DNA of 64,000 nucleotides from a virus, in IMG/VR virus record IMGVR_UViG_3300032288_004964, positions 186,001-250,000 of that record; one strand, given 5' to 3'. Of this stretch, positions 8,554-64,000 are shown piece after piece. The notes beneath the pieces are model-generated. The model worked only from the letters and a program-made list of their open reading frames with translations, was not told where the DNA came from and did no database searches. The translations under genes were made by a program, and so were the position numbers. Positions within the stretch are counted from its first letter, which is position 1. Each line of letters starts with the position of its first letter.

Positions 8554-9246
8554 ATGAAATTAAAATTCACATTACTATTTTCACTAATTAGTTTATTAAG
8601 TTTTTCACAAGTAGACACAGTTACAATTAAACATTCAGGTTACACAACTCTTTGGAGTTCAACTTTAGATTATCCACTTATGGTTCAATGGTGGGACACA
8701 AAGTTAAGATGTGATTGTAATAGAATACCAAGAAAAGATGATTTTGGACCAGATCCGGCTTTGGTAAAACAAACAGATATTCAAAGTGAATATGATTCTG
8801 CTAATAAAACGGAAAAAGCTAAAGGTCTTAAAGGATTCGATAGAGGTCATATGACACCAGCGGCTGATAATCAATGTCCTTTAGTAAACAATGGTAAAAA
8901 AATTACTGCTGAAAAGTTACAAGAAGAGTGTTTTTATTTCACAAATATGGCTCCTCAATATCACTCATTAAATGCTGGTGATTGGAAAAAGCTAGAAGAA
9001 AGAACAAGAGAATTAACAACAACATATGATTCAGTTTATGTTTGGTGTGGTTCTGTGGGAACTAAAATGACAATTGATGGATTACATATTCCTACTAAAT
9101 GTTGGAAAGTTATTTACATTAAGAAAACTAAAACTTATGAATGTTATATCTTTAATAACACACCAGATAAACCAGTTGGTTTAGACAAGTGGAAAGTTAG
9201 AAAAGAGGAAGTTGAAAAATTAACAGGGTTTAAACTCAACTTATAA
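8554..9246 (+). CDS. Secreted DNA/RNA non-specific endonuclease (NUC1/Serratia nuclease family)
   Basis: A 230-residue protein with an N-terminal signal peptide (MKLKFTLLFSLISLLSFSQ, likely cut after Ser-x-x-Ser-Gln). The beta-beta-alpha metal nuclease domain follows, with its hallmark DRGHMTPAAD (catalytic His) and the downstream metal-binding Asn in 'FTNMAPQ'. Family members cleave single- and double-stranded DNA and RNA with Mg2+. The signal peptide puts it in the periplasm or outside the cell, unusual for a phage replication-region gene. It could destroy DNA released at lysis or incoming phage DNA, or supply nucleotides. It has its own promoter-like element at 8525. Confidence 0.9.
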   Translation: MKLKFTLLFSLISLLSFSQVDTVTIKHSGYTTLWSSTLDYPLMVQWWDTKLRCDCNRIPRKDDFGPDPALVKQTDIQSEYDSANKTEKAKGLKGFDRGHMTPAADNQCPLVNNGKKITAEKLQEECFYFTNMAPQYHSLNAGDWKKLEERTRELTTTYDSVYVWCGSVGTKMTIDGLHIPTKCWKVIYIKKTKTYECYIFNNTPDKPVGLDKWKVRKEEVEKLTGFKLNL

Positions 9247-18923: not shown

Positions 18924-19664
18924 ATGAGAAAAAAAATATTAGTATTTACTGGGGCTGGAGTCTCTGCTGAAAGTGGAATACAGACCTTTAGAGACTTAAA
19001 TAACGGGCTTTGGTACAACTTCAAGGTTGAAGATGTAGCTACACCAGAAGGTTGGAAAAAAGATAGATTAAAGGTTCTTGATTTTTATAATCAAAGACGT
19101 TCTCAACTAAAAGATGTTCAACCTAATTTAGCACATAAAATAATTGCAGATTTAGAAAAAGAATTTGATGTTACTATTATTACACAGAATGTAGATGACT
19201 TACATGAAAGAGCTGGATCTACAAATGTTGTTCATCTTCATGGTGAACTAACAAAGGCAAGGGGATGTATGTATGACCAATCACTAGAATTAGATAATAT
19301 TATTGATATTGGATATAATCCTATTAATATAGGAGATAAATGTCCTAAAACTGGTTCTCAGTTAAGACCACATATTGTTTGGTTTGGTGAAATGTTAGAT
19401 TATGGAAATCTTGAATATTCAAGAAAAGTAGCCACAATGGCAGATGCTTGTGTTGTTATTGGGACTTCTATGCAAGTAACGCCTGCTAATATGATACCAT
19501 TCACAACAAAAGAAAATTGTTTGATTTACTATGTAGATCCAAGTGAGGTTGATTTTAAAATATCAGATTATAGAATGGCTTTCTTTTATCATTTTCAAGA
19601 AAAAGCAACAATTGGGATGAAAAAAGTATATGATGATTTAATTAACACTTTTAAAAATAAATAA
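18924..19664 (+). CDS. cobB: Sir2 family NAD-dependent deacylase (CobB-like sirtuin)
   Basis: A 246-residue sirtuin with the NAD-binding GAGVSAESGI, QNVDDLHERAG, the catalytic His in VVHLHGEL, and GTSMQVTPA. 'DFYNQRR' matches the Tyr/Arg pair that gives SIRT5 and E. coli CobB their preference for acyl groups such as succinyl. The usual four zinc cysteines are mostly absent (only GCM and DKC visible), a zinc-poor form I associate with Bacteroidota sirtuins, which points to a host origin. It would remove acyl groups from lysines of host or phage proteins using NAD. It has a clear host-type promoter and leads a run of small genes. Confidence 0.9.
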   Translation: MRKKILVFTGAGVSAESGIQTFRDLNNGLWYNFKVEDVATPEGWKKDRLKVLDFYNQRRSQLKDVQPNLAHKIIADLEKEFDVTIITQNVDDLHERAGSTNVVHLHGELTKARGCMYDQSLELDNIIDIGYNPINIGDKCPKTGSQLRPHIVWFGEMLDYGNLEYSRKVATMADACVVIGTSMQVTPANMIPFTTKENCLIYYVDPSEVDFKISDYRMAFFYHFQEKATIGMKKVYDDLINTFKNK

Positions 19665-24180: not shown

Positions 24181-25299
24181 TTATTTGTTTTTACTTTTAA
24201 ATTCTTTCTTATCAGAAGAGATGTGAAATTTATCAAAGTCATAGTATTTATCATAGACTTCTCTAATTTTCTTTAGATTTACCTTATCTAAGATGTCATA
24301 TACTGACCAACCTTCTGGGTTAATCCACTGATTAACATTTTTATATCTTAAGATTTCATCTTTTTGTTTTCTTACTTTATAGTAATCTTTAACAAGGTCA
24401 AATCTTTCTTTTATTAAATACTTATCAGGATTATTAATTACTAATTTAGTAGCTTCTAAAACCTCATCAAAGTTTTTATTTGATGTTAAAGTTGAAATTG
24501 TATTAATTCCTTGATTATTCATTCTTGATTGATAACAATGAACATAGTAAACTAATCCTTTTTTCTCTCTAATTTCTTGATATAAAGGAGATTTCAAACC
24601 TAATGATAACATCGCATTTATGAAATGAACATAAGCAAAATCTTCTTCAATAATAGGTGAAAGAATAGCAATAGATGTTTTATCTTTGAATTCATTGTTT
24701 AACTCAAGTGTATTATTATAATCACCAAACTTAGTTACTTTTTCAATTTTTCTTTCAGCAAACTCAATAGTATTGTTTTTATATTGTTTGTTTTTAGAAA
24801 CATTTATAATTTTAGTTGGCTTAGCATATTGTAATTCAAAGAAATTAAGACAATCCATAAACTTAAGATTCTCTAAATCTTCATTAAGACCAATTGGGTC
24901 AAAATCATTAAATAATTTACGAGAAAGATTTAACATATGTGATTGAGTTTGGTCATTAAATGAATCCATATACTCTTCAAGAACAATATTTCTTTCATTT
25001 TCAAATTGTTCTTTAGTAACATTAAATTGACCAAGTAAGTTCATAAACTCACCTTTCCATTTATTTACTTTTTCATCTAATCCAGTTAAATAGAAAACAA
25101 TTTCATTTGATGATGTGTATGCGTTCCAGTCTATAGAATCCCTATCAAAGTCTTCTTGTAGATGATCAAAGTTCTTGCACATCAAATGTTCCATAAGATG
25201 ACTGATTCCATACCATCCCTTCTTCTCAAGGTTTGTTGAACCTTCGTATACAACATAGAACCCAGAAAGTTCTGTCTCGCTTTTTAAATTAATTATCAT
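24181..25299 (-). CDS. M16 family (insulinase-like) zinc metallopeptidase
   Basis: A 372-residue protein with the inverted zinc motif HLMEH (H-x-x-E-H, about residues 34-38). The distal Glu region follows ('FENERNIVLEEYMD', about 95-108), as in M16 peptidases. The second, non-catalytic half includes 'REKKGLVYYVH' (about 240), the M16 C-domain signature. One M16 unit is about 400-450 residues, so it is nearly complete and would work as a dimer. M16 enzymes degrade small peptides or process precursors. Its phage role is unknown. It overlaps the ribbon-helix-helix gene upstream. Confidence 0.86.
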   Translation of the reverse strand: MIINLKSETELSGFYVVYEGSTNLEKKGWYGISHLMEHLMCKNFDHLQEDFDRDSIDWNAYTSSNEIVFYLTGLDEKVNKWKGEFMNLLGQFNVTKEQFENERNIVLEEYMDSFNDQTQSHMLNLSRKLFNDFDPIGLNEDLENLKFMDCLNFFELQYAKPTKIINVSKNKQYKNNTIEFAERKIEKVTKFGDYNNTLELNNEFKDKTSIAILSPIIEEDFAYVHFINAMLSLGLKSPLYQEIREKKGLVYYVHCYQSRMNNQGINTISTLTSNKNFDEVLEATKLVINNPDKYLIKERFDLVKDYYKVRKQKDEILRYKNVNQWINPEGWSVYDILDKVNLKKIREVYDKYYDFDKFHISSDKKEFKSKNK

Positions 25300-27580: not shown

Positions 27581-28207
27581 ATGATCAAAGTAGGACTAAC
27601 GGGAAATAGATATTCTGGAAAAGATACAGTAGCTTCTTTATTTAAGAAAATTAGTATTCCAGTATTTGATGCTGATGTTATTATTAAATTTCTTATAAAT
27701 CATAACTTTGAAATGGATTATAAGATTAAAAAGAAAATTGATAGTTCATTTTTTAAGAATGACCGATTGGATTTAAGTAAACTAACCGGTCCAGTTTTAG
27801 ATCAAATTATTGATATTGTTGAGTATGATTTATTTGATGCTTATAAAAAGTATGAATTAAAAAATATGAACTCTATTTATACCATTTTTCATTCCTCAGT
27901 CTTATTTGAAAGAGATTGGAATAAAAAAATGGATTTTACTATTTCTGTTTTTTCACCAATATCTGATAGAGTTGAAAGATGTCAGAAAGAATCCGATCTT
28001 AAATTAGCAAATATTTATAACTTATCACAAAGAGAAATGAAAGATCTTTCTAAAAATTCTCTTTCTGATTATGTTATACACAATTATAATGATGAAATTA
28101 ATCCATTTGGTGATATATTGACACAAGTAAATAAAATTGACCAAAGACTAATAGATAACTACTTGTCAAGCGAACGTAAACTTAGATTAAAAAATGGAAT
28201 GTATTAG
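27581..28207 (+). CDS. Dephospho-CoA kinase-like P-loop kinase
   Basis: A 208-residue P-loop kinase. GLTGNRYSGKDT (about 5-16) is the Walker A. 'VPVFDAD'-like 'IPVFDADVIIKFL' (about 29-41) matches the CoaE segment that follows it, and 'FSPISDRVERC' corresponds to the lid region. The closest families are dephospho-CoA kinase (CoaE) and the phage deoxynucleoside monophosphate kinases of the T4 gene 1 type, which share this loop. I cannot decide the substrate from sequence alone. It has a host-type promoter. It ends in TAG, overlapping the next gene by 14 nt. Confidence 0.75.
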   Translation: MIKVGLTGNRYSGKDTVASLFKKISIPVFDADVIIKFLINHNFEMDYKIKKKIDSSFFKNDRLDLSKLTGPVLDQIIDIVEYDLFDAYKKYELKNMNSIYTIFHSSVLFERDWNKKMDFTISVFSPISDRVERCQKESDLKLANIYNLSQREMKDLSKNSLSDYVIHNYNDEINPFGDILTQVNKIDQRLIDNYLSSERKLRLKNGMY

Positions 28208-29647: not shown

Positions 29648-30388
29648 ATGTATAATAAAATCTATGATTTTTGTAAAGTAAGAAATAAGGGAAGTATTTA
29701 TCAAAATGATAATAACCCTACACCAAGAGTTCAATTTCTAATGAGCCTTCTTGATAATGAATGTATTTCTTATGAGTTAGATAAATTTAATACTGATAAA
29801 GTAACTGGTTATAATATTATCATGAAAGGAAATTCTACTAGAATGGTAGTTGCTCATCATGATATTTCCAATCCAAATATTGACAATGCTAATGATAATT
29901 CAGCATCTGTTATCAATGCTATAATGATTAAGAAGTTAATGCCTGAGATGAATGTTGTTCTTTTGGATGGTGAAGAATGTGGTGGTATTGGTTCTCAAAG
30001 ATGTTCTGAAAGGATAAATGAAGGATATTTTGGAAAAATTGATTGGGTTCTTAACCTAGAGCTAACTGGTAGAGGGGGTAAACACTTTTTTATTGGTGAT
30101 TATCCTGGTACACTAACTAATCATATTAAATCTATATTTAACTGTCCTATTACAAGAACTCCTTATAATGATTCTGTTACTTTTAGAAAAAATGGAATTG
30201 ATTCTTGTGTTATTAATCCGCTACCACCTCTTAATGAAGGAACATCACAGGTTAAATGGGATGAAAATACTTATCTAGACTACTCTATGTTATTTAACTG
30301 CCATTCTTCTAAAGACACTATTGATACAATTGATATTAGTGATATGAAAGAATTTGTAGAAGATGTTGTTTTAAAGATACTTTCTTAA
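29648..30388 (+). CDS. M28-like zinc aminopeptidase
   Basis: A 246-residue protein with the metal-binding sequence of M28/M20 di-zinc peptidases. It has 'VVAHHDIS' (first His), 'NANDNSASV' (bridging Asp), 'LLDGEECGGIGSQ' (catalytic and ligand Glu), 'NLELTG' and a late His in 'CHSSKDT'. It lacks a signal peptide, so it acts in the cytoplasm and probably trims peptides. Such a gene is uncommon in phages. Its promoter core lies 4 nt before ATG, suggesting a leaderless message. Confidence 0.82.
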   Translation: MYNKIYDFCKVRNKGSIYQNDNNPTPRVQFLMSLLDNECISYELDKFNTDKVTGYNIIMKGNSTRMVVAHHDISNPNIDNANDNSASVINAIMIKKLMPEMNVVLLDGEECGGIGSQRCSERINEGYFGKIDWVLNLELTGRGGKHFFIGDYPGTLTNHIKSIFNCPITRTPYNDSVTFRKNGIDSCVINPLPPLNEGTSQVKWDENTYLDYSMLFNCHSSKDTIDTIDISDMKEFVEDVVLKILS

Positions 30389-30423: not shown

Positions 30424-30873
30424 ATGAAACATATTACTAAATTTGACCAGTTTATAAATGAAGAGTTTTATAAAAAAAATCAAAGCCTAACTTATCTTAA
30501 ACAACCTGTTGAAATCAGAATTGATGTTGAGAAAGTATCTCACGCAACTGATAGACAATTCAGACACGGTCTTTCTGATAAAATATCAAATGATGATATT
30601 ATTGAAACTATTGAACTTGCAATTGAACAAATAACTATTGATTTAATGCAAGATAACTTTGATATCTACCAAGATGAGGATAATTATCCATCAAAAGGTG
30701 TCAAAGCTGGAGAACCAAATAGATTTATAATTAAGAATAAAACAAATAACTTAAATGTTGTTTGTCAGTTAGAACCAGGTGATAATGAATTCACATTAAC
30801 AGTTATAACAGTTATGACTAAACCTGATTTCAAAGCTTATCCAGGACAATATATTGTTGAAGTACAATCTTAA
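30424..30873 (+). CDS. Protein with capsid-targeting-like N-terminus and INE|E site
   Basis: A 149-residue protein starting MKHITKFDQFINEEFYKK, matching the shared pattern with an Ile-x-Glu site at residues 11-13. The body ('VSHATDRQFRHGLSDKIS...') is alpha/beta. It is flanked by a promoter-like element and the terminator at 30877, so it is its own transcription unit. Function unknown; packaging is an inference. Confidence 0.7.
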   Translation: MKHITKFDQFINEEFYKKNQSLTYLKQPVEIRIDVEKVSHATDRQFRHGLSDKISNDDIIETIELAIEQITIDLMQDNFDIYQDEDNYPSKGVKAGEPNRFIIKNKTNNLNVVCQLEPGDNEFTLTVITVMTKPDFKAYPGQYIVEVQS

Positions 30874-30907: not shown

Positions 30908-33900
30908 TTATCTTAGTAAAGTAACATGTCCGAATTTATCTACAACATCACCATCTGAAGTTTTGAATTTTATTCTATAAACATAAACTTCTTCTTTAGC
31001 AGGATTTCCTTTATAAAGACCATCCCATCCTTTTTTATAATCATTAGTACTGAATAGTAATGATCCCCATCTATCAAAAATCTCTAGTTGATAGAATCTC
31101 TGATCAAATCCATATGTAGTAAATACTGGTAGAAAAACATCATTCAATCCATCGTAGTTTGGAGTAAATGAATTTGGTATTGTTATATTAAAATCATTTT
31201 TAACTTCTACCCATTTAGTCATCCAATCTTTACAACCTTCTGGTGTAATTGATATTAAAGTTACTTCATACTTACCCACTTTAGGAAATACAACAATAGG
31301 ATTAACCTCATTTGAAGTAAAACTCATACTTGGTATTGACCAAGTGTAAGTGCAAGATCCTAGTATATTTGTTTTATTACTTAGTTGTAACTTTGGATCA
31401 GATATTAAAACATCATTAACTATAAAGTTAGTAACCGGCTTTGAGAAAACACTTACATTAGGAATTGATACTAAGTTAGCTACACAACCCTCAGCACTTA
31501 TGTAACTAAAATTAGCAGTATAAGTTCCATTTGATGTATAAGTATGTGATGTATATAATCCCTTAGACTCGCTACCATCATCAAATTTCCAAGAACCAAC
31601 ACCATCATTTCTATCAGTTCTAAATATAACTTGTAATGGATTACAACCTGATAATTCACTTGTTAAAACATTAACTGTTGGTGTCTCAGAAACAAATATA
31701 TTAATCATTGAACTATCTTTACAAACATTATTGATTGAGTTTGTCCAATAGATAACACGATTGTTACCAACATTGGCTAGGTTCGGATGAAACATATTAC
31801 CAATTACACCAGGACTACCTGACCAAGTATAGCCAGGATTTTGAACAAGTGAGTTAAGATTAAATGGAAATTCAGATCCTTTACAATAAGCCGATTTAGG
31901 ATATTTATCAAAATCAGCAGAGATAAACTTTTCAACACTGATAGTTGTTTGTGCATAAGCAACACAAGGACCAGCAGTGATACTATAATTAACAATGTTA
32001 TTACCATTTACACCAAATGCTGGGTTAAAGACACCATTTAGTGAAACGGCGTTATTATTAAACCCACCAAATATGCCACCAACTGGAGTTACTATTAACT
32101 GAAACGGTGTTGATGTGTTACAGATTCTATTCACACTTGTTATAATAGGAGAAGATAGTGAATAAACTTTAACCGCAACAGTTGAACTGTTAGGGCATAA
32201 CCCACTTGGTGAAGTAGATGTGCTGTGAGTTAATACAATGTTTCCAGTACCAGAAGTTGATGGATTAAATAGTGATCCAGAAATACCAGGACCAGACCAA
32301 ACACCTGATGATAAAGCATATGGTCCTAAATTTATAGCTGCGCTTGTATTACACAAATCAGGAATTTGATTTGTGATTGTAGATGGAACATAAGCTTCAA
32401 CATTAATAACTTTAGTTTGTTGAGCAAAACATGTATTTGTACCAACAACATAAGATACTTGATTAGAACCGATTGAAGCAAGACTTGGAGTAAATACGCC
32501 TGATGTTGATAGATATGAAGAAGCCACCCAGTTACCAGTATTTGGTGTGACTGATAATTGTATTGGAGAATTCATATTACAAACTGTAGGTACATTTTCT
32601 ATATTAGGCATTATAGGATTATAAACAGATACATTTATAGTTTTAGTATCTGGACATAAAGTAGAATTCGGTGTAGAAGTAGTGTTATAAGTTAATGTAT
32701 AAACACCAGTTGGTAAATTAGGATTAAGATAGTTATTACTAATATTAGGACCGTTCCAATATCCTGTAGTATTTTGAATAATGGCCATTAGATTAACTAA
32801 ACCACCATAAGAACACTGGTTGTTTACAGTACCTGTAATTATAGCTGGTCTGAAAATAGAAGGTGAAATTGAAGTAGATCCAGTATTAATACAAGGTCCT
32901 ATATTAACTGTGTAAGTAACTAATGTATTTTGAGGCGCAGAATTAGAAGGCGTTACTACACCAAGTGATGAAACAGCTTGATTTGAGCCCCAAGTACCAC
33001 CTGATGGACTAGCATTCATCACAAATGAAGAAGCATTTGTACAAAAAGGTGATATCTGTATAATACTAGGCACTAAAGTAGATGTCACTGATACATTTAG
33101 AATTGTACTTGATGGACAAACACTAGCATTTGGATTTGATTGAGTTGAATAAGTTAATTGATAATTACCAGTAGATAAACCACTTGGATTAAAGATACCA
33201 TTACTAACATTAGATCCTGTCCAAGTCCCTGTTGTGTTTTGAACTATTGTCATTAAATTAATAGTTGGGTTAGTAACACAAATAGGACTTACACTTGATG
33301 TTAAATTAGAGTTATTGAAATGATTTAACTGAAATGTTACTGAGTTAGAAGCTGAACAACTATTAGTTAAAGTTGAGTAAGTAATTAAGTTAGTTCCAAT
33401 TGTATATGTATTTGAAGTTGGTATAATAATACCATTAGGTATGTTAAAAGTACCACCAGATGGAGTAGCCTGAATAGTATAAGGATTTCCATTATCACAC
33501 ATATTAGGTATAGCAACAAATGTTGGAGTCATTGGATTTGTTACTAATAAAGACATTGTTTTTGTTTGAGGACAATTAATAACAGAAGGAGTAACTGTAA
33601 CTGAATAGGTTATAAGAGTTGAAGTACCTGGTGCCACACTTGCACTTATGATATTGTTTTGAAATGTACTACCAAATAACATAGTATTAGGAGTCCAATT
33701 GTATAAATATTGATTTGGTGAAACAACATATCCAAAACTAACACCACCAGCAATTTGTTGACCTTGACATAATGTGCTATTACCTGGTGATAAAGTCCAA
33801 GTAAAAATATGAGTAGGTACATTCAATGTTGTTGAATAAGAACAAGAACCATCAAATACATTAATGCTATAAGTACCTGCAGATAAGTTATTAAATGTAT

Positions 33901-35551
33901 AAGTTGTTAATGGTGTTGTTATTAAAGATGAAGTATATGCTAATGTGTTTGATGTAACAATAAAGTAATTTGTATTTGGCGGTGAACCAGCAGCAGGCGA
34001 TAGATTAATTGTTCCAGTGCCATTACTTCCATTCGGACAAACAGATGATGATGAAACTGAAATAGCACCCGGAGGAGAAGCCATTAGTGTATATGAGATA
34101 ACTTCATTACAATTATAAATTGATGTATAAGTTAGATTATAAACAGCACCATTTGTTGGAGATGTTACGGTATAACTTGATGCGATACCAGTTGATCCAG
34201 TTATTGCAGAATTACCAAGAAACCATTGAAAGTTAGTACCACCACCGGTTGTTAAATAAGCTTGACCATTACAGTAAGGCTTTAGAACATTCTGTGGAAT
34301 TGGTGTGCCAGATCCTACAGCAACTGTAGCTGAAGCTGTTCCACACATAGCATTACCCAAACCAGCAATAGTAACAGAATAAATACCCGCTGGTAAGTTT
34401 ACGGCAACAGATGAGTTACCAACAACAGAGTTTGATGAGTTTGTCCAGGTATAAGTATAACCTGAACCACTACCATTACCTTGTACCGTAGCAGAACCAG
34501 AAGAACCATTCAAACATGTTGTTGATGATCCAATACCAGCAATACTAATTGTTGATGTGTTTAAGGTATTGATTGACATTAATTGACAACCACCCTGAGA
34601 CATTAATTGAACTGTGTAAGTTTGACCGGGTATAGGATTTGTAACTGTTAATACAGGCATTGTTCCTTGAGGAGCAGCAATTATACCATTAGGTCCATAC
34701 CATTGATAAGTGTTATAACCTAAGGGTGCTGCGATTGTAGCAACACCTGAACCAGAACAATAAGAAACAGGTCCCGGTATTTGACCACCTGGTATTCCAC
34801 CAAGTCCTTGACCTATTAATTGACCACCACACATCGCATCAAAGAAAGTAGTACCATAGTGACCACCAAAGTTACAATCAGCAGTCCAAACTTCTATAGT
34901 AACACAACCTCCGATATAAGGTGTTAAATCGATAGCTTTTACTTGCCAGTTAGTCATCACACCAGCAGTTCCACAATTTGTGAAAGAAACATTGGCTAAT
35001 GAACCACAATTAGCGGCTAATGTCATTGAAGAGCATGAGGCAACGGTATTACCACTACAAGCATTAAGAACTCGTAAATAAAGTCCTGGTTGATCACAGC
35101 AACTATGACCACCATTTTCATAATAACCAGCAAAAGCAAATTGAAATAAAGTATTGGCTGATGTTACGTTAAATGTAGTAGCCATTTTATTTCTTGAATA
35201 ATTTGCTGTATTATCTCCAATCTTAGCAACTTGAGTGCCCCCAAAAGGAGAATTACCTAATATGAAAGAACACCCACCAGAAGAACTATTATAAGTTAAT
35301 GGTGTATTTACTATGTAGAATTCATTAGCACCTAAATTATAAGGTGTTCCTAAGTTAGCACAATTGTAACCAGCATTAGTAGCGTAGTTACCGTATAATG
35401 TCCAACTTGTTACAGCATAAGCATTACCAGATCCATTATAAGTCCCGGATGGTGTTTGTTCAAAGTTTATGTTTGTGGGACATTGAGCGTTTCCAAATAT
35501 AGTTACTAAACTAAAAAGAAAACTAATAAGTATTTTACTTAGATTCTTCAT
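30908..35551 (-). CDS. Giant secreted surface protein with T9SS type B sorting domain
   Basis: A 1547-residue protein. It has an N-terminal signal peptide (MKNLSKILISFLFSLVTIFGNAQ), then an extracellular region with a lectin- or MAM-like start. About ten Cys-containing Ig-like repeats of 'C-x-...-G-x-W-x-G-x-x-(I/V)-x-x-x-x-(F/L)-N-P' type follow, then two PKD-like domains (about 1315-1460; 'GSWKFDDGSESKG...SHTY'). Residues about 1465-1547 are a gliding-motility-type C-terminal domain (IPNSFTPNYDGLNDVF, 'EIFDRWGSLLF', 'GWDGLYKG', 'DVYVYRI'-like), the type B signal for T9SS export. Every feature points to display on the host surface, not the virion. A strong AGGAGG lies 4 nt before ATG. It overlaps the small secreted protein upstream. 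Confidence 0.9.
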   Translation of the reverse strand: MKNLSKILISFLFSLVTIFGNAQCPTNINFEQTPSGTYNGSGNAYAVTSWTLYGNYATNAGYNCANLGTPYNLGANEFYIVNTPLTYNSSSGGCSFILGNSPFGGTQVAKIGDNTANYSRNKMATTFNVTSANTLFQFAFAGYYENGGHSCCDQPGLYLRVLNACSGNTVASCSSMTLAANCGSLANVSFTNCGTAGVMTNWQVKAIDLTPYIGGCVTIEVWTADCNFGGHYGTTFFDAMCGGQLIGQGLGGIPGGQIPGPVSYCSGSGVATIAAPLGYNTYQWYGPNGIIAAPQGTMPVLTVTNPIPGQTYTVQLMSQGGCQLMSINTLNTSTISIAGIGSSTTCLNGSSGSATVQGNGSGSGYTYTWTNSSNSVVGNSSVAVNLPAGIYSVTIAGLGNAMCGTASATVAVGSGTPIPQNVLKPYCNGQAYLTTGGGTNFQWFLGNSAITGSTGIASSYTVTSPTNGAVYNLTYTSIYNCNEVISYTLMASPPGAISVSSSSVCPNGSNGTGTINLSPAAGSPPNTNYFIVTSNTLAYTSSLITTPLTTYTFNNLSAGTYSINVFDGSCSYSTTLNVPTHIFTWTLSPGNSTLCQGQQIAGGVSFGYVVSPNQYLYNWTPNTMLFGSTFQNNIISASVAPGTSTLITYSVTVTPSVINCPQTKTMSLLVTNPMTPTFVAIPNMCDNGNPYTIQATPSGGTFNIPNGIIIPTSNTYTIGTNLITYSTLTNSCSASNSVTFQLNHFNNSNLTSSVSPICVTNPTINLMTIVQNTTGTWTGSNVSNGIFNPSGLSTGNYQLTYSTQSNPNASVCPSSTILNVSVTSTLVPSIIQISPFCTNASSFVMNASPSGGTWGSNQAVSSLGVVTPSNSAPQNTLVTYTVNIGPCINTGSTSISPSIFRPAIITGTVNNQCSYGGLVNLMAIIQNTTGYWNGPNISNNYLNPNLPTGVYTLTYNTTSTPNSTLCPDTKTINVSVYNPIMPNIENVPTVCNMNSPIQLSVTPNTGNWVASSYLSTSGVFTPSLASIGSNQVSYVVGTNTCFAQQTKVINVEAYVPSTITNQIPDLCNTSAAINLGPYALSSGVWSGPGISGSLFNPSTSGTGNIVLTHSTSTSPSGLCPNSSTVAVKVYSLSSPIITSVNRICNTSTPFQLIVTPVGGIFGGFNNNAVSLNGVFNPAFGVNGNNIVNYSITAGPCVAYAQTTISVEKFISADFDKYPKSAYCKGSEFPFNLNSLVQNPGYTWSGSPGVIGNMFHPNLANVGNNRVIYWTNSINNVCKDSSMINIFVSETPTVNVLTSELSGCNPLQVIFRTDRNDGVGSWKFDDGSESKGLYTSHTYTSNGTYTANFSYISAEGCVANLVSIPNVSVFSKPVTNFIVNDVLISDPKLQLSNKTNILGSCTYTWSIPSMSFTSNEVNPIVVFPKVGKYEVTLISITPEGCKDWMTKWVEVKNDFNITIPNSFTPNYDGLNDVFLPVFTTYGFDQRFYQLEIFDRWGSLLFSTNDYKKGWDGLYKGNPAKEEVYVYRIKFKTSDGDVVDKFGHVTLLR

Positions 35552-35819
35552 CTTTCCTCCTAACTGTAAAAAACTTTTGATTTATGTAGTCTCTTTTAAG
35601 TTGCTTAATGTGATTCTCTAATTCTGAACCAACTACATTATTAAACTTTAGTTTTTCTCTTATTTCAGATTCATTGAACCCTTTCAAAGAGTCTATAGGA
35701 TATTTATCCATATCTGGAGTGAAGGTTTGTGACTTTATCACAAAAGGTAGTAGAATTGCGATGAATAATATTAGCCTTGCCAACTTCTCCATCTTTTTAA
35801 TTTTCATATTATTTTTCAT
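35535..35819 (-). CDS. Small secreted or membrane-anchored protein
   Basis: A 94-residue protein with a basic start and a hydrophobic signal segment (LARLILFIAILLPFVIKSQ, about 14-31), then a short acidic mature part ('FTPDMDKYPIDSLKGFNE'). Later ATGs at 35807 and 35792 are also possible. It overlaps the T9SS cargo gene by 17 nt and carries that gene's Shine-Dalgarno in its 3' end, so the two are coupled and may act together at the envelope. Confidence 0.68.
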   Translation of the reverse strand: MKNNMKIKKMEKLARLILFIAILLPFVIKSQTFTPDMDKYPIDSLKGFNESEIREKLKFNNVVGSELENHIKQLKRDYINQKFFTVRRKDEESK

Positions 35820-35898
35820 ACCTAAATTGATTTAGATGTTTATTTATATATTCTATGATATTATTGGACAAAGATATACACTAATCAGTGAGCAATAA

Positions 35899-35924
35899 AA
35901 AACCCCTGATATAATCAGGGGTTT
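35899..35924 (-). terminator. Terminator of the S1-domain gene
   Basis: An 11-bp stem (AAACCCCTGAT / ATCAGGGGTTT) with a 3-nt loop and a T run on the minus strand, downstream of the gene ending at 35981. Confidence 0.82.
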
Positions 35925-35980: not shown

Positions 35981-37054
35981 TTACCCTAAAGTTAAAAATA
36001 TCTTTCTATTCATTCTATCAACTGATAGAACTTTCACTTTCAACTGTTGACCAGATGTGAATCTTTTACCCAGTTTCTCCATTTCTGAAGTGTGAATAAG
36101 ACCAACAGTCTCGCTGTCTAAGTTGATAAGTGTACCAAATTGTTTGGTGTCTCTAACAACACCATCTAATACTTGGCCGTTCTTAATATTATCCCAAAGA
36201 GTTTCTCTTAAGATCTGAGTAAGAATAATCTTATCCTTAATCACTTCTTTAATATAAAACTGGATTTCAAATCCTGGTTTAATAGAAGTTAATTTCTCTT
36301 GCCACTCTGGGTCAACATTTGCTTTGTGGATCATTCCAGTCAAACACTCATTGAATTCAACGAATACTCCAAAAGGAGTTGTTCCTGTAACATGTCCATT
36401 GTAAACTTCACCACTTTGAAGTTCTTTGATTGCTGAAGGAATTAGTCCTTGTAGGTATCTGCGTCTACTTACAATATAGGTTCCTTCGTCACCTGAATAA
36501 GATTCAATCATAACCTCAAGTGTTTTACCAACAATAGAAGTTGGGTCATGAAGTTTATTGATACCAGCTAATGTGTTTGGCATAAATGCCGGTAGTGTTA
36601 CACCACCGTGTGATAACTCGATATCATAACCAGCTGGGTTAAGTGATTTGATATAAGCTGTCACTGATTGACCTTCTTCCAAAGTCATAAGATTGTGGTG
36701 AGCTCTTGATTCATAGATAGCAGCGATGCTACCTGTGATATAATAATTATCTTGGTCAATATCAAGAATTAGAACATCAATCATGTCACCAACATTAGAA
36801 TTCTTCAGATATTTAGACTCAGACAATCTGTCTTCAATTCTAATATCATCTTTGTATCCTAATACACTGAACAAGTGTTGGTCTGCTAATTTTCCGCGGT
36901 ATTTAGCAGAAACAACTCCTCCTTTTTCAGGAGATTTTGCTTCGTAAGCATCATAGAGCTTACTCATTTCAATAAATTTTGAAGTGTTTTTTGAACTTTC
37001 TTCTTCAAATAAGAAAGCTAATTCGGGATTACCCATTGTTTTTTCCATATACAT
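35981..37054 (-). CDS. S1-domain RNA-binding protein (ribosomal protein S1-like)
   Basis: A 357-residue protein. Four OB-fold S1-type repeats cover most of it: about 70-115, 120-195, 205-275 ('GEVYNGHVTGTTPFGVFVEF...TGMIHKANV') and 285-357 ('GQVLDGVVRDTKQFGTLINLDSETVGLIHTSEM'). Cellular bS1 has six repeats (about 550-600 residues), so this is a shortened S1-like protein. S1 brings mRNA to the ribosome, and the phage version may favour phage messages or, if it binds the 30S, compete with host S1. Its codon use looks less AT-biased than that of neighbours (several GC-richer stretches), possibly reflecting high expression. It has its own terminator at 35899. Confidence 0.85.
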   Translation of the reverse strand: MYMEKTMGNPELAFLFEEESSKNTSKFIEMSKLYDAYEAKSPEKGGVVSAKYRGKLADQHLFSVLGYKDDIRIEDRLSESKYLKNSNVGDMIDVLILDIDQDNYYITGSIAAIYESRAHHNLMTLEEGQSVTAYIKSLNPAGYDIELSHGGVTLPAFMPNTLAGINKLHDPTSIVGKTLEVMIESYSGDEGTYIVSRRRYLQGLIPSAIKELQSGEVYNGHVTGTTPFGVFVEFNECLTGMIHKANVDPEWQEKLTSIKPGFEIQFYIKEVIKDKIILTQILRETLWDNIKNGQVLDGVVRDTKQFGTLINLDSETVGLIHTSEMEKLGKRFTSGQQLKVKVLSVDRMNRKIFLTLG

Positions 37055-60958: not shown

Positions 60959-63900
60959 CTAATCATATACTCTTATTTCAATTGATGCTCCCATGAGGCC
61001 GTCAACTAATACATTAAAATTGAAATAAGTAGCTAATAATATTTGAGATGTATAAACTGCCGGTACAACTGTTCTATCAGGTGCTGCAGTATTAGTAATA
61101 AAAACAACACATTTAGTTGGATCAAACAACACATTTGTTGCTTGATAGACACCAGTTGATACATAGTCCCATGTTGGATTAAATCCAAGTGTATTTTTAA
61201 AAACCTGTGTTGTTGTTAATGATGATGTAACACCATATCCATTACCAATTAGATTGGCAACATATACTTTATATCCATTGGATAAATTAGATGATGCTGT
61301 CCAAGTACCAACACCATTAGTATCAGATACTAAAACATAACCATCTGATTGTGTTGTATCTTCTAATCTAAATGCTCCTGATTGTGTAGCATAAACATGC
61401 AATTTAGCAGTAGATGATGCTGTTCCTATACCCACTTGACCATTAAATACATATTTATGTAGAGTACCAGATTCTCCAAAATTAAATTCATTATCTTGTG
61501 TAGTTATAGAATTATATCCAATTGCCCAAGAGTTATTATGTGATGACACAGCATTTCTACCTATTGCTACACCTCTAACACTTGAGTTAACAGTCGATGA
61601 TCTACCAATTGCTATACCATCTGTTGTACCTGAAACAATATTTGAAAATAAACCAACCGCTATACCATCATCAGATGAGACTACACCAGACCCAATAGCA
61701 ATAGCTCCACCATTTCCAGAGTCATTAAGTGTATTACCATTACCTATTGATATATTAGGTGCTCCAAATCCTTGACTCATCTTAATAGCTGTATAAGATC
61801 CAATATTATATGAACTAGAAAGTCCTGATAATTTAATATTACCACTTACTTCTAATTTTTCGGAAGGAGTTGTGGTTCCAATTCCAACATTTGAGCCAGT
61901 TACATAAATAGAACTTGTTGATGAAAGTGTTGTAGATGATGTATAATAAGGCACATAATTAGTACTTCCTGATAATGAAGTGCTTGATGTTGCTATCAAT
62001 AATCCATCAACACTTACTGCTACAAGACAAGAAACTGATGATGTCATAGATGTTATAATGATATCATTAGCATGAGCCGTATATTGTCTACTTGCGGTTA
62101 TGTTAGATCCTAAAATAGAAGATCCTGTCATACCATTTGTAGTATTATTACATCCACCAATTATAGAACCAAATGGTGCATTTGAAGTATTACAATAACC
62201 CCCACCTATAGCAGAATAAGATGAGCAATATCCAGAAATTGTATTTTGTTGACCACCTCCTATTGTTGAAAATGATGAATTAGTACCTGATATTGTATTT
62301 GCTATACCACCTCCTATTGTTGAATTAATTGAAGAATACCCAGAGATTGTATTTGAATTACCACCATTTATAGTTGAGTGATACGAATAATAACCTGAGA
62401 TTGTATTTTGTTGACCACCACCTATATTTGAGTTATTTGAATATTGACCACTTATTGAGTTTAATGATCCACCATTTATAGTTGAGTTGTATGAGTTGAA
62501 TCCAGATATTGTATTTTGTTGACCACCTCCTACTGTTGAACTATATGAATTAAATCCAGATATTGTATTTAATGTACCACCGCTTATAGTTGATCTATAT
62601 GAATTTGTACCAGATATTACGTTTTGAACACCTCCGCTTATAGTTGAGCAATGTGAATAAGTACCACATATTTTGTTTAAGCGTCCGCCTCCTATTGTTG
62701 AATCTATTGAGCAGTATCCAGATATTTCGTTTTGTCTACCACCAGATATAGTTGATTGATGAGAGAATTGACCTGAGATTGTATTTTGACATCCACCACT
62801 TATAGTTGAAGAGTTACTAGTAGCTCCAGAGATAATATTACAAGAACCTCCACTTATTGTTGAATAATATGAAATATTTCCAGAGATTAAATTACAATAT
62901 CCACCGCTTATAGTTGAAATAGTAGAAGTATTACCAGAGATTGTATTAAGTTTACCACCACCTATAAATGATTGATATGAGTAAAGACCAGAAACTATAT
63001 TATAATAACCACCACTTATAGTTGAAAAACATGAATTGGTACCAGAAATTGAATTAGATCTACCACCGCTTATAGTTGAATATTCCGAATTAATTCCAGA
63101 TATTATATTGGCGTTTCCTCCTCCTATTGCTGAAAAAAATGAGTTAGAACCAGAGATTGTATTACAAGAACCTCCTCCTATTGTCGAATTATCTGAATTA
63201 GGACCAGATATTGTGTTCGTCTGTCCACCGGATATAGTAGAGTAATATGAATTAATTCCAGAAATTGTATTATCACATCCACCACTTATAGTTGATTGAT
63301 ATGAATTTGTACCTGAAATTTTATTTAATTGACCACCAGATATAGTGGAATAATAAGAAGATTTACCAGAGATTGTATTAGTACTACCACCACCTATAGC
63401 TGAGTAATATGAACATTCTCCAGAGATTGTATTTGTTAGACCACCACTTATTGTAGATCTATATGAATTTGTACCTGAAATTATATTATTATAACCCCCA
63501 CCTATAGTAGAAGAATCTGAATTATATCCTGATATTGTATTAGTACCACCACCACTTATAGTTGATTGATATGAATAACAACCAGAGATTGTATTAGTAC
63601 TACCACCACTTATAGTTGATTTTTGTGAGTAAAAACCAGAGATTGTATTAGTACTACCACCACTTATAGTTGATTTTTGTGAATAATATCCAGATATTGT
63701 ATTTTGCTGACCACCTCCTATAGTTGATAAGCACGCACTGTAGTATGATGAAACTGTATTACAACATCCACCACTTATAGTTGATAAACATGAACTCTCT
63801 ATACAATTACAATAACCACCACTTATAGTTGAACAATTTGAGCTAGATATATAATTAAAATAACCACCACTTATAGTTGATCTATATGAATAAGAGCAGA

Positions 63901-64000
63901 TCATATTTGCTTCACCACCACTTATAGTTGATAAGCATGAGTCAGTTATACAATTATTCCAACCGCCGCCTATATTAGAGTAATTTGATGCTCTTATTGT
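60959..64000 (-). CDS. Repeat-rich tail fibre/adhesin (5' end off window)
   Basis: At least 1013 residues; the frame stays open to the right edge, so the gene begins outside the window. From the edge down to about 62165 it is an array of 18-residue repeats (x-S-T-I-S-G-G-x-x-N-T-I-S-G-x-x-S-x), roughly 34 copies, resembling YadA-like head repeats that build a trimeric beta-roll. A C-terminal part follows with more 'A-I-G-x-x-S/A' units and 'VGIGTTTPSEKLEVSGNIKL', a sequence type common before the tip of phage fibres. It probably is a long trimeric fibre that touches the host. Confidence 0.82.
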   Translation of the reverse strand, partial: TIRASNYSNIGGGWNNCITDSCLSTISGGEANMICSYSYRSTISGGYFNYISSSNCSTISGGYCNCIESSCLSTISGGCCNTVSSYYSACLSTIGGGQQNTISGYYSQKSTISGGSTNTISGFYSQKSTISGGSTNTISGCYSYQSTISGGGTNTISGYNSDSSTIGGGYNNIISGTNSYRSTISGGLTNTISGECSYYSAIGGGSTNTISGKSSYYSTISGGQLNKISGTNSYQSTISGGCDNTISGINSYYSTISGGQTNTISGPNSDNSTIGGGSCNTISGSNSFFSAIGGGNANIISGINSEYSTISGGRSNSISGTNSCFSTISGGYYNIVSGLYSYQSFIGGGKLNTISGNTSTISTISGGYCNLISGNISYYSTISGGSCNIISGATSNSSTISGGCQNTISGQFSHQSTISGGRQNEISGYCSIDSTIGGGRLNKICGTYSHCSTISGGVQNVISGTNSYRSTISGGTLNTISGFNSYSSTVGGGQQNTISGFNSYNSTINGGSLNSISGQYSNNSNIGGGQQNTISGYYSYHSTINGGNSNTISGYSSINSTIGGGIANTISGTNSSFSTIGGGQQNTISGYCSSYSAIGGGYCNTSNAPFGSIIGGCNNTTNGMTGSSILGSNITASRQYTAHANDIIITSMTSSVSCLVAVSVDGLLIATSSTSLSGSTNYVPYYTSSTTLSSTSSIYVTGSNVGIGTTTPSEKLEVSGNIKLSGLSSSYNIGSYTAIKMSQGFGAPNISIGNGNTLNDSGNGGAIAIGSGVVSSDDGIAVGLFSNIVSGTTDGIAIGRSSTVNSSVRGVAIGRNAVSSHNNSWAIGYNSITTQDNEFNFGESGTLHKYVFNGQVGIGTASSTAKLHVYATQSGAFRLEDTTQSDGYVLVSDTNGVGTWTASSNLSNGYKVYVANLIGNGYGVTSSLTTTQVFKNTLGFNPTWDYVSTGVYQATNVLFDPTKCVVFITNTAAPDRTVVPAVYTSQILLATYFNFNVLVDGLMGASIEIRVYD

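Follow-up and report, generated by a model that had tools for sequence, protein, structure and literature searches.

A huge phage carries, within the 64,000-nucleotide stretch analysed here (the window; bases 186001–250000 of the 385,333-base virus record G000), a pair of overlapping genes that together are, judged by sequence, a host-derived, split phage copy of a Bacteroidota cell-surface adhesin. The large gene (30908–35551, minus strand, as for all features of the pair and its control signals below) encodes a 1547-aa type B T9SS adhesin, assigned on its ORF, its TIGR04131, CHU_C and PKD_4 matches and its full-length phage and bacterial relatives. The small gene (35535–35819) encodes a 94-aa protein with a signal peptide that corresponds to a detached N-terminal adhesin domain. 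That this split pair, exported through the host T9SS, remodels the surface of the infected cell is in our estimate fairly probable, an estimate that does not extend to superinfection exclusion.

The extreme C-terminus of the large protein (residues 1456–1547 of 1547; 30911–31186) matches the full 85-position TIGR04131 model at 56.8 bits (E 1.8e-15; cut-off 35 bits), and CHU_C from Pfam covers residues 1456–1533 (E 3e-14). A sequence-only reading of this DNA had described a 1547-residue protein with a signal peptide and a type B sorting domain and had proposed this profile comparison; the description held, except that the domain begins at about residue 1456 and not at 1465. The same reading spoke of PKD-like domains in the plural. 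One PKD domain is present at residues 1320–1359 (31475–31594; PKD_4, E 1.8e-11), and it alone passes the Pfam cut-off. Secretion of SprB requires five conserved motifs within the last 100 residues. The comparison made here is with the columns shared by phage and bacterial sorting domains in their alignment; these columns, among them IPNxFTP, RWG, WDG, YVY and GHVTLLR, are kept in the window protein. The N-terminus of the window protein, MKNLSKILISFLFSLVTIFGNA followed by Q, reads on inspection as a typical Sec signal peptide (residues 1–22; 35486–35551) and passes a simple hydrophobicity rule, as do 3 of the 33 window ORFs in all. No SprB repeats (PF13573) were found in the window protein in the Pfam search.

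Prediction of the whole structure had also been proposed; models were obtained for residues 1288–1547 and for the homologous N-terminus of the protein of phage L097. Using an input alignment of 16 phage and bacterial sequences, AlphaFold modelled residues 1288–1547 with a mean pLDDT of 91, the C-terminal end forming a four-stranded sheet of long strands, in line with a published prediction that type B domains form a sheet of four strands (PMC12618676). The structures closest to this model come from fragments of GhpA, the grappling-hook protein of Aureispira, a match that at the level of the model is a likeness of Ig-like modules in general. The L097 N-terminal domain was modelled with moderate confidence (mean pLDDT 62) as a jelly roll, for which Foldseek returned CBM4-2 (1k42, E 2.2e-6) as best match, with the gingipain K3 adhesin domain also close. 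By homology, the N-terminal domain of the window protein (about residues 23–245; 34817–35485) is predicted to be a lectin-like jelly roll near carbohydrate-binding modules. A sequence search of the PDB gave no significant relatives of the adhesin, and a BFVD fold search returned generic jelly-roll and tail-fibre matches only.

The small ORF overlaps the large one by 17 bp, and the overlap is identical in the sister contig L003, as is an AGGAGG (35556–35561) that lies inside the small gene just upstream of the large-gene ATG and is its likely ribosome-binding site. The coupling to a small secreted protein reported in the sequence-only reading was therefore confirmed. The probable start of the small ORF is an internal ATG aligned with the start of its relative, giving 85 rather than 94 aa. 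The product has its own signal peptide, is modelled as a two-helix unit (pLDDT ~80) and has no sorting tag, so that on sequence it could be retained in the periplasm. In phage L097 and in bacteria L098, L099, L101 and L169–L171 this domain is fused to the large protein, whereas in the window and L003 it is a separate ORF. Because the two parts form one protein in bacteria and L097, the window pair is read as a split host-type adhesin and, being fused elsewhere and coupled here, its two products probably work together as partners. No relatives of the fused N-terminus were found in INPHARED, and in L096 the start region lies in two frames, perhaps through an assembly error.

Upstream of the pair, a terminator-like hairpin (35900–35924; an 11-pair stem followed by a T run) closes the S1-domain gene. 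A possible Bacteroidota-type promoter of the pair, TTG-N16-TATCTTTG (35869–35895), is suggested weakly, by its position only. The pattern occurs 10 times in the window against 11.6 expected and is not enriched; at this chance-level frequency it was downgraded to weak evidence for the pair having its own control.

Full-length relatives of the large protein occur in two phage lineages (59–70% identical), as the sequence-only reading had suggested searching for. The closest is in contig L003 (70%), and the other phage lineage (L097, L096 and L133) stands at about 60%. Full-length or nearly full-length relatives in Bacteroidota chromosomes (L099/G001, L101 and L169–L172) are 46–59% identical. The best of these, L099/G001 from a 'Sphingobacteriia' genome from Lake Lanier, is 58–59% identical (58% over residues 27–1547) and is encoded among ordinary chromosomal genes, with further full-length copies (46–51%) in the family of that genome. 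The domain order is the same and homology is full length against this bacterial family, whose members share with the window protein the sorting domain, the signal peptide, the N-terminal domain and, in the loci read, the lack of a recognisable adjoining shuttle gene. They differ in being single fused chromosomal proteins of ~1640–1730 aa, whereas the phage has two genes. In a tree of nine sequences the five phage copies group together, apart from the bacterial ones (support 92/98), and the bacterial copy closest to them is that of L099. Either one capture followed by exchange among phages or two captures from related hosts would account for the origin. The sequence-only reading had missed this descent from a bacterial adhesin family, the identity of the small protein as the detached N-terminal part, and a second type B gene outside the window. 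A further candidate phage homologue, MT839536.1 (L006, 'Bacteriophage sp.'), was rejected: its type B gene lies beside a murein transglycosylase-like gene and uvrA and looks bacterial.

The record G000 contains a terminase match, and window genes matching phage families encode an SbcC-like protein, an NAD-dependent DNA ligase, a DNA methyltransferase and a sigma factor. Host DNA misassembled into, or contaminating, the phage contig, the possibility that the sequence-only reading had named as fatal to its placement of the gene in a phage genome, might be suspected from two features: the flanking site lacks the pair in three sister phages, and overall GC is above that of the surroundings. We rejected it as having a negligible chance of being correct. 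The independent phage contig L003 carries the same pair with the same overlap, synteny is preserved, and the phage copies stand apart from the bacterial ones in the tree. GC3 of the large gene is 0.143 against a phage-gene median of 0.158, whereas the bacterial copy (0.279) resembles its own neighbours. Between window and L003 the large gene has a dS of 0.88 and a dN/dS of 0.26; in 150-codon blocks, dN/dS is 0.09–0.16 over the first 450 residues, the most constrained part, 0.22–0.53 in the middle and 0.17–0.29 from residue 1200. The small gene has a dN/dS of 0.36 over 82 codons. Purifying selection and phage-like GC3 together indicate that the large gene is an old, maintained phage gene and not contamination.

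The insertion site is flanked by an M28 peptidase gene (29648–30388) on one side and the S1-domain gene (35981–37054) on the other, which are 64–75% identical and in the same order in three sister phages that lack the pair there; the phages thus have a backbone in common, to which the pair is an accessory addition. Only these two genes define the site, since the flanking 149-aa gene (30424–30873) has no relative in the sister phages. The S1-domain protein contains several S1 RNA-binding domains, is 64–71% identical in three sister huge phages and perhaps affects host translation. In L003 the same pair occupies another site, between the first adhesin locus and a DNA methylase, so the small and large genes have moved as a unit. 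The corresponding place in G000 is occupied by a PlsY-like ORF (G000:366069–366692; L008:4069–4692), named from sequence only as an acyl-phosphate glycerol-3-phosphate acyltransferase, a membrane-lipid enzyme.

Outside the window, G000 encodes another type B protein (357568–360264; L007:15568–18264). It has 898 aa, with a signal peptide, four SprB repeats, PKD, CHU_C and TIGR04131. The gene order at its locus is a gp52-like topoisomerase (a name taken from the sequence), a 121-aa protein, a rhomboid protease, a NIF-type phosphatase, a 562-aa secreted protein, the 898-aa adhesin and a 122-aa protein. The same locus carries a type B adhesin in L003 (736 aa), L091 (734 aa), L093 (739 aa) and the 642-kb LR756502, where the adhesin has 1670 aa and 14 SprB repeats. 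In the 476-kb sister phage L094 the locus lacks the adhesin, yet four TIGR04131 matches occur elsewhere in that genome; LR756502 has three matches in all and LR745206 (635 kb) has four, one of them below the cut-off. The rhomboid protease gene (PF01694; G000:354462–355061, L007:12462–13061; L003:1114–1677; L005:4059–4652), which weakly matches the rhombosortase model TIGR03902, is conserved, lying a few genes ahead of the adhesin with SprB repeats, and its product might process surface proteins. The end of the 562-aa secreted protein (G000:355752–357440; L007:13752–15440) resembles a shortened type A T9SS tail; this tail matches no HMM, and neither L003 nor L005 has a counterpart of that size in this position.

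Other genes of the window are given here as separate observations. A secreted DNA/RNA non-specific endonuclease (8554–9246; PF01223, E 4.4e-31) bears a signal peptide; DNA beyond the cytoplasm is a possible target. A Sir2-like protein (18924–19664), an M16 peptidase (24181–25299) and a CoaE dephospho-CoA kinase (27581–28207) are encoded in addition to the M28 peptidase, and several of these four are conserved in sister huge phages. A 981-aa ORF (60959–63904) has numerous STISGGxxN repeats at its start, reminiscent of trimeric autotransporter adhesin heads, and is probably a tail fibre.

To place the pair among viruses at large, IMG/VR was scanned with the C-terminal alignment, which confirmed 385 stretches, a rough figure, as host DNA may be present in some contigs and nearly identical ones were counted repeatedly. 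Among the best 80 of the 385, 17 lie on contigs of at least 100 kb, 66 of the 71 with a complete start begin signal-like by the simple hydrophobicity rule, and a ~735-aa family and a set of ~187-aa proteins dominate. The latter, minimal type B proteins (L034, L038, L048, L059, L060, L070 and others), are frequent in viral contigs and consist of little beyond a signal peptide and a sorting domain; a function as shuttle decoys is possible.

A type B substrate depends on a PorP/SprF-like shuttle, whose gene is usually a neighbour, and is seemingly held at the surface by this shuttle; in F. johnsoniae one shuttle is common to three orphan type B substrates (PMC12618676, PMC9143113). We searched nine phage records (G000 and eight others) with the shuttle model TIGR03519 and found no match, whereas two control bacterial genomes with orthologues gave ten and eleven; some of the phage records are incomplete, and the search would overlook a shuttle that has diverged very far. 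Four phages lacked SprA, which both orthologue-bearing bacterial genomes have. The idea that the phage brings its own PorP/SprF or SprA was rejected on these negative phage and positive control results. By inspection, no recognisable shuttle gene adjoins the bacterial orthologues in the loci read, and the type A tag TIGR04183 had no match at E 1e-3 across the whole phage record. Since no phage shuttle or translocon was detected, the phage protein would be expected to use a shuttle of the host, as an orphan substrate. A working T9SS is presumed in the phage's host. From what is known of T9SS biology, export and surface display of the large protein by the host T9SS is very likely.

Under the mechanism that we propose, both products would leave the cytoplasm of the infected cell via Sec, and the large protein would cross the outer membrane through the host T9SS on a host PorP/SprF-like shuttle. 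It would then stay surface-held through that shuttle, its lectin-like N-terminus outward because the C-terminus is held at the cell; the small product, as the detached N-terminal domain, would most likely work with it. A phage-made relative of the host adhesins would in this way take up shared shuttles and surface, adhesins that serve other phages as receptors would be lowered or masked, and the cell would be protected until lysis.

Superinfection exclusion is our best guess at the purpose of the adhesin pair, held tentatively, yet the sequence favours no one adhesin use over others. In Cellulophaga baltica and other flavobacteria, mutations in gliding/T9SS genes lead to phage resistance, and some flavobacterial phages need gliding and T9SS proteins for infection, with SprB and RemA as proposed receptors (PMC13288928). 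Counting against exclusion, expression could come too late for long protection, since in L133, of the second phage lineage, the adhesin gene lies among late baseplate-type genes. The main rival is display for adhesion, by which infected cells would stick to one another, to particles or to new hosts, or would glide differently, so that progeny are freed beside fresh cells. Homology to bacterial adhesins, the lectin-like tip and the SprB repeats in the second protein of G000 and in proteins of several other huge phages speak for this reading, but the window protein itself has no such repeats, and such repeats do not prove a gliding role; we regard it as rather unlikely.

Two further readings carry less weight. 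An abundant orphan substrate might overload the T9SS and strip host adhesins, receptors and enzymes from the surface: with no shuttle of its own found, it would compete for host shuttles, and several such substrates are encoded per phage genome. The most conserved part of the protein, however, is the far N-terminal domain (dN/dS 0.09–0.16), which a mere jammer would not need, and we consider this explanation improbable. The protein might instead be a fibre or decoration protein of the virion, its T9SS tag a relic or otherwise used, given that phage fibres often contain Ig-like and lectin-like domains and that baseplate-type genes lie near the adhesin gene in L133. Virion assembly is cytoplasmic, though, the sorting domain is conserved, and signal peptides are kept on both products and in 66 of 71 phage relatives with a complete start, a retention that makes a virion part very unlikely.

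Phage morons alter the host surface, for instance by O-antigen conversion or receptor-masking lipoproteins. The window pair resembles them as an accessory unit that may alter the infected-cell surface and block other phages; it differs in using the T9SS and a giant adhesin instead of an enzyme or a small lipoprotein. Like the window protein, SprB, the gliding adhesin of Flavobacterium johnsoniae, is a large modular type B surface adhesin. Its repeats are absent from the window protein, whereas four occur in the 898-aa protein of G000, and its own shuttle, SprF, is encoded next to sprB (PMC12618676), whereas none was found in the phage. The sequence-only reading knew of no phage system that uses the T9SS, a claim contradicted by two papers. 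In Cryophage (2020), the products of three variable genes have type A sorting domains, and competition or superinfection exclusion was suggested for them (PMC7468147); that cargo is likewise phage-coded and tagged for the host T9SS, and exclusion was proposed there too, but its tags are of type A, on an endoglucanase, a glycoside hydrolase and a PA14 protein, whereas the window holds a type B, host-like adhesin in a huge phage. In crAss-like gut phages (2019), T9SS sorting domains were likewise noted on phage ORFs (PMC6949934), tied to BACON domains near head genes, with the type not stated and the function not followed up. Phage T9SS cargo has therefore already been published; for type B or gliding-type C-terminal domains in phages, and for SprB-like adhesins in the huge ones, our search found no earlier account, its coverage leaving out most subscription journals and preprints, and type B host-like adhesins in huge phages are apparently unreported.

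More broadly, and with still more reserve than for exclusion, we suggest that huge Bacteroidota phages maintain a set of host-derived T9SS type B adhesins, one to four in number and some of them SprB-like, which would rebuild the host surface and perhaps gliding by way of host shuttles; in the present case one adhesin would be split and rejoin outside the cytoplasm. Phages are well known to alter the sugars and pili of the infected-cell surface, whereas hijacking of the T9SS has been a side remark in two papers. For orphan type B substrates, the phage adhesin offers a ready test of how shuttles are found, and its natural split gives a handle on the role of the N-terminal domain. If the reading is correct, many large phages of a major bacterial phylum would dress their hosts in phage-coded adhesins, with a bearing on superinfection, biofilm and particle attachment in water.
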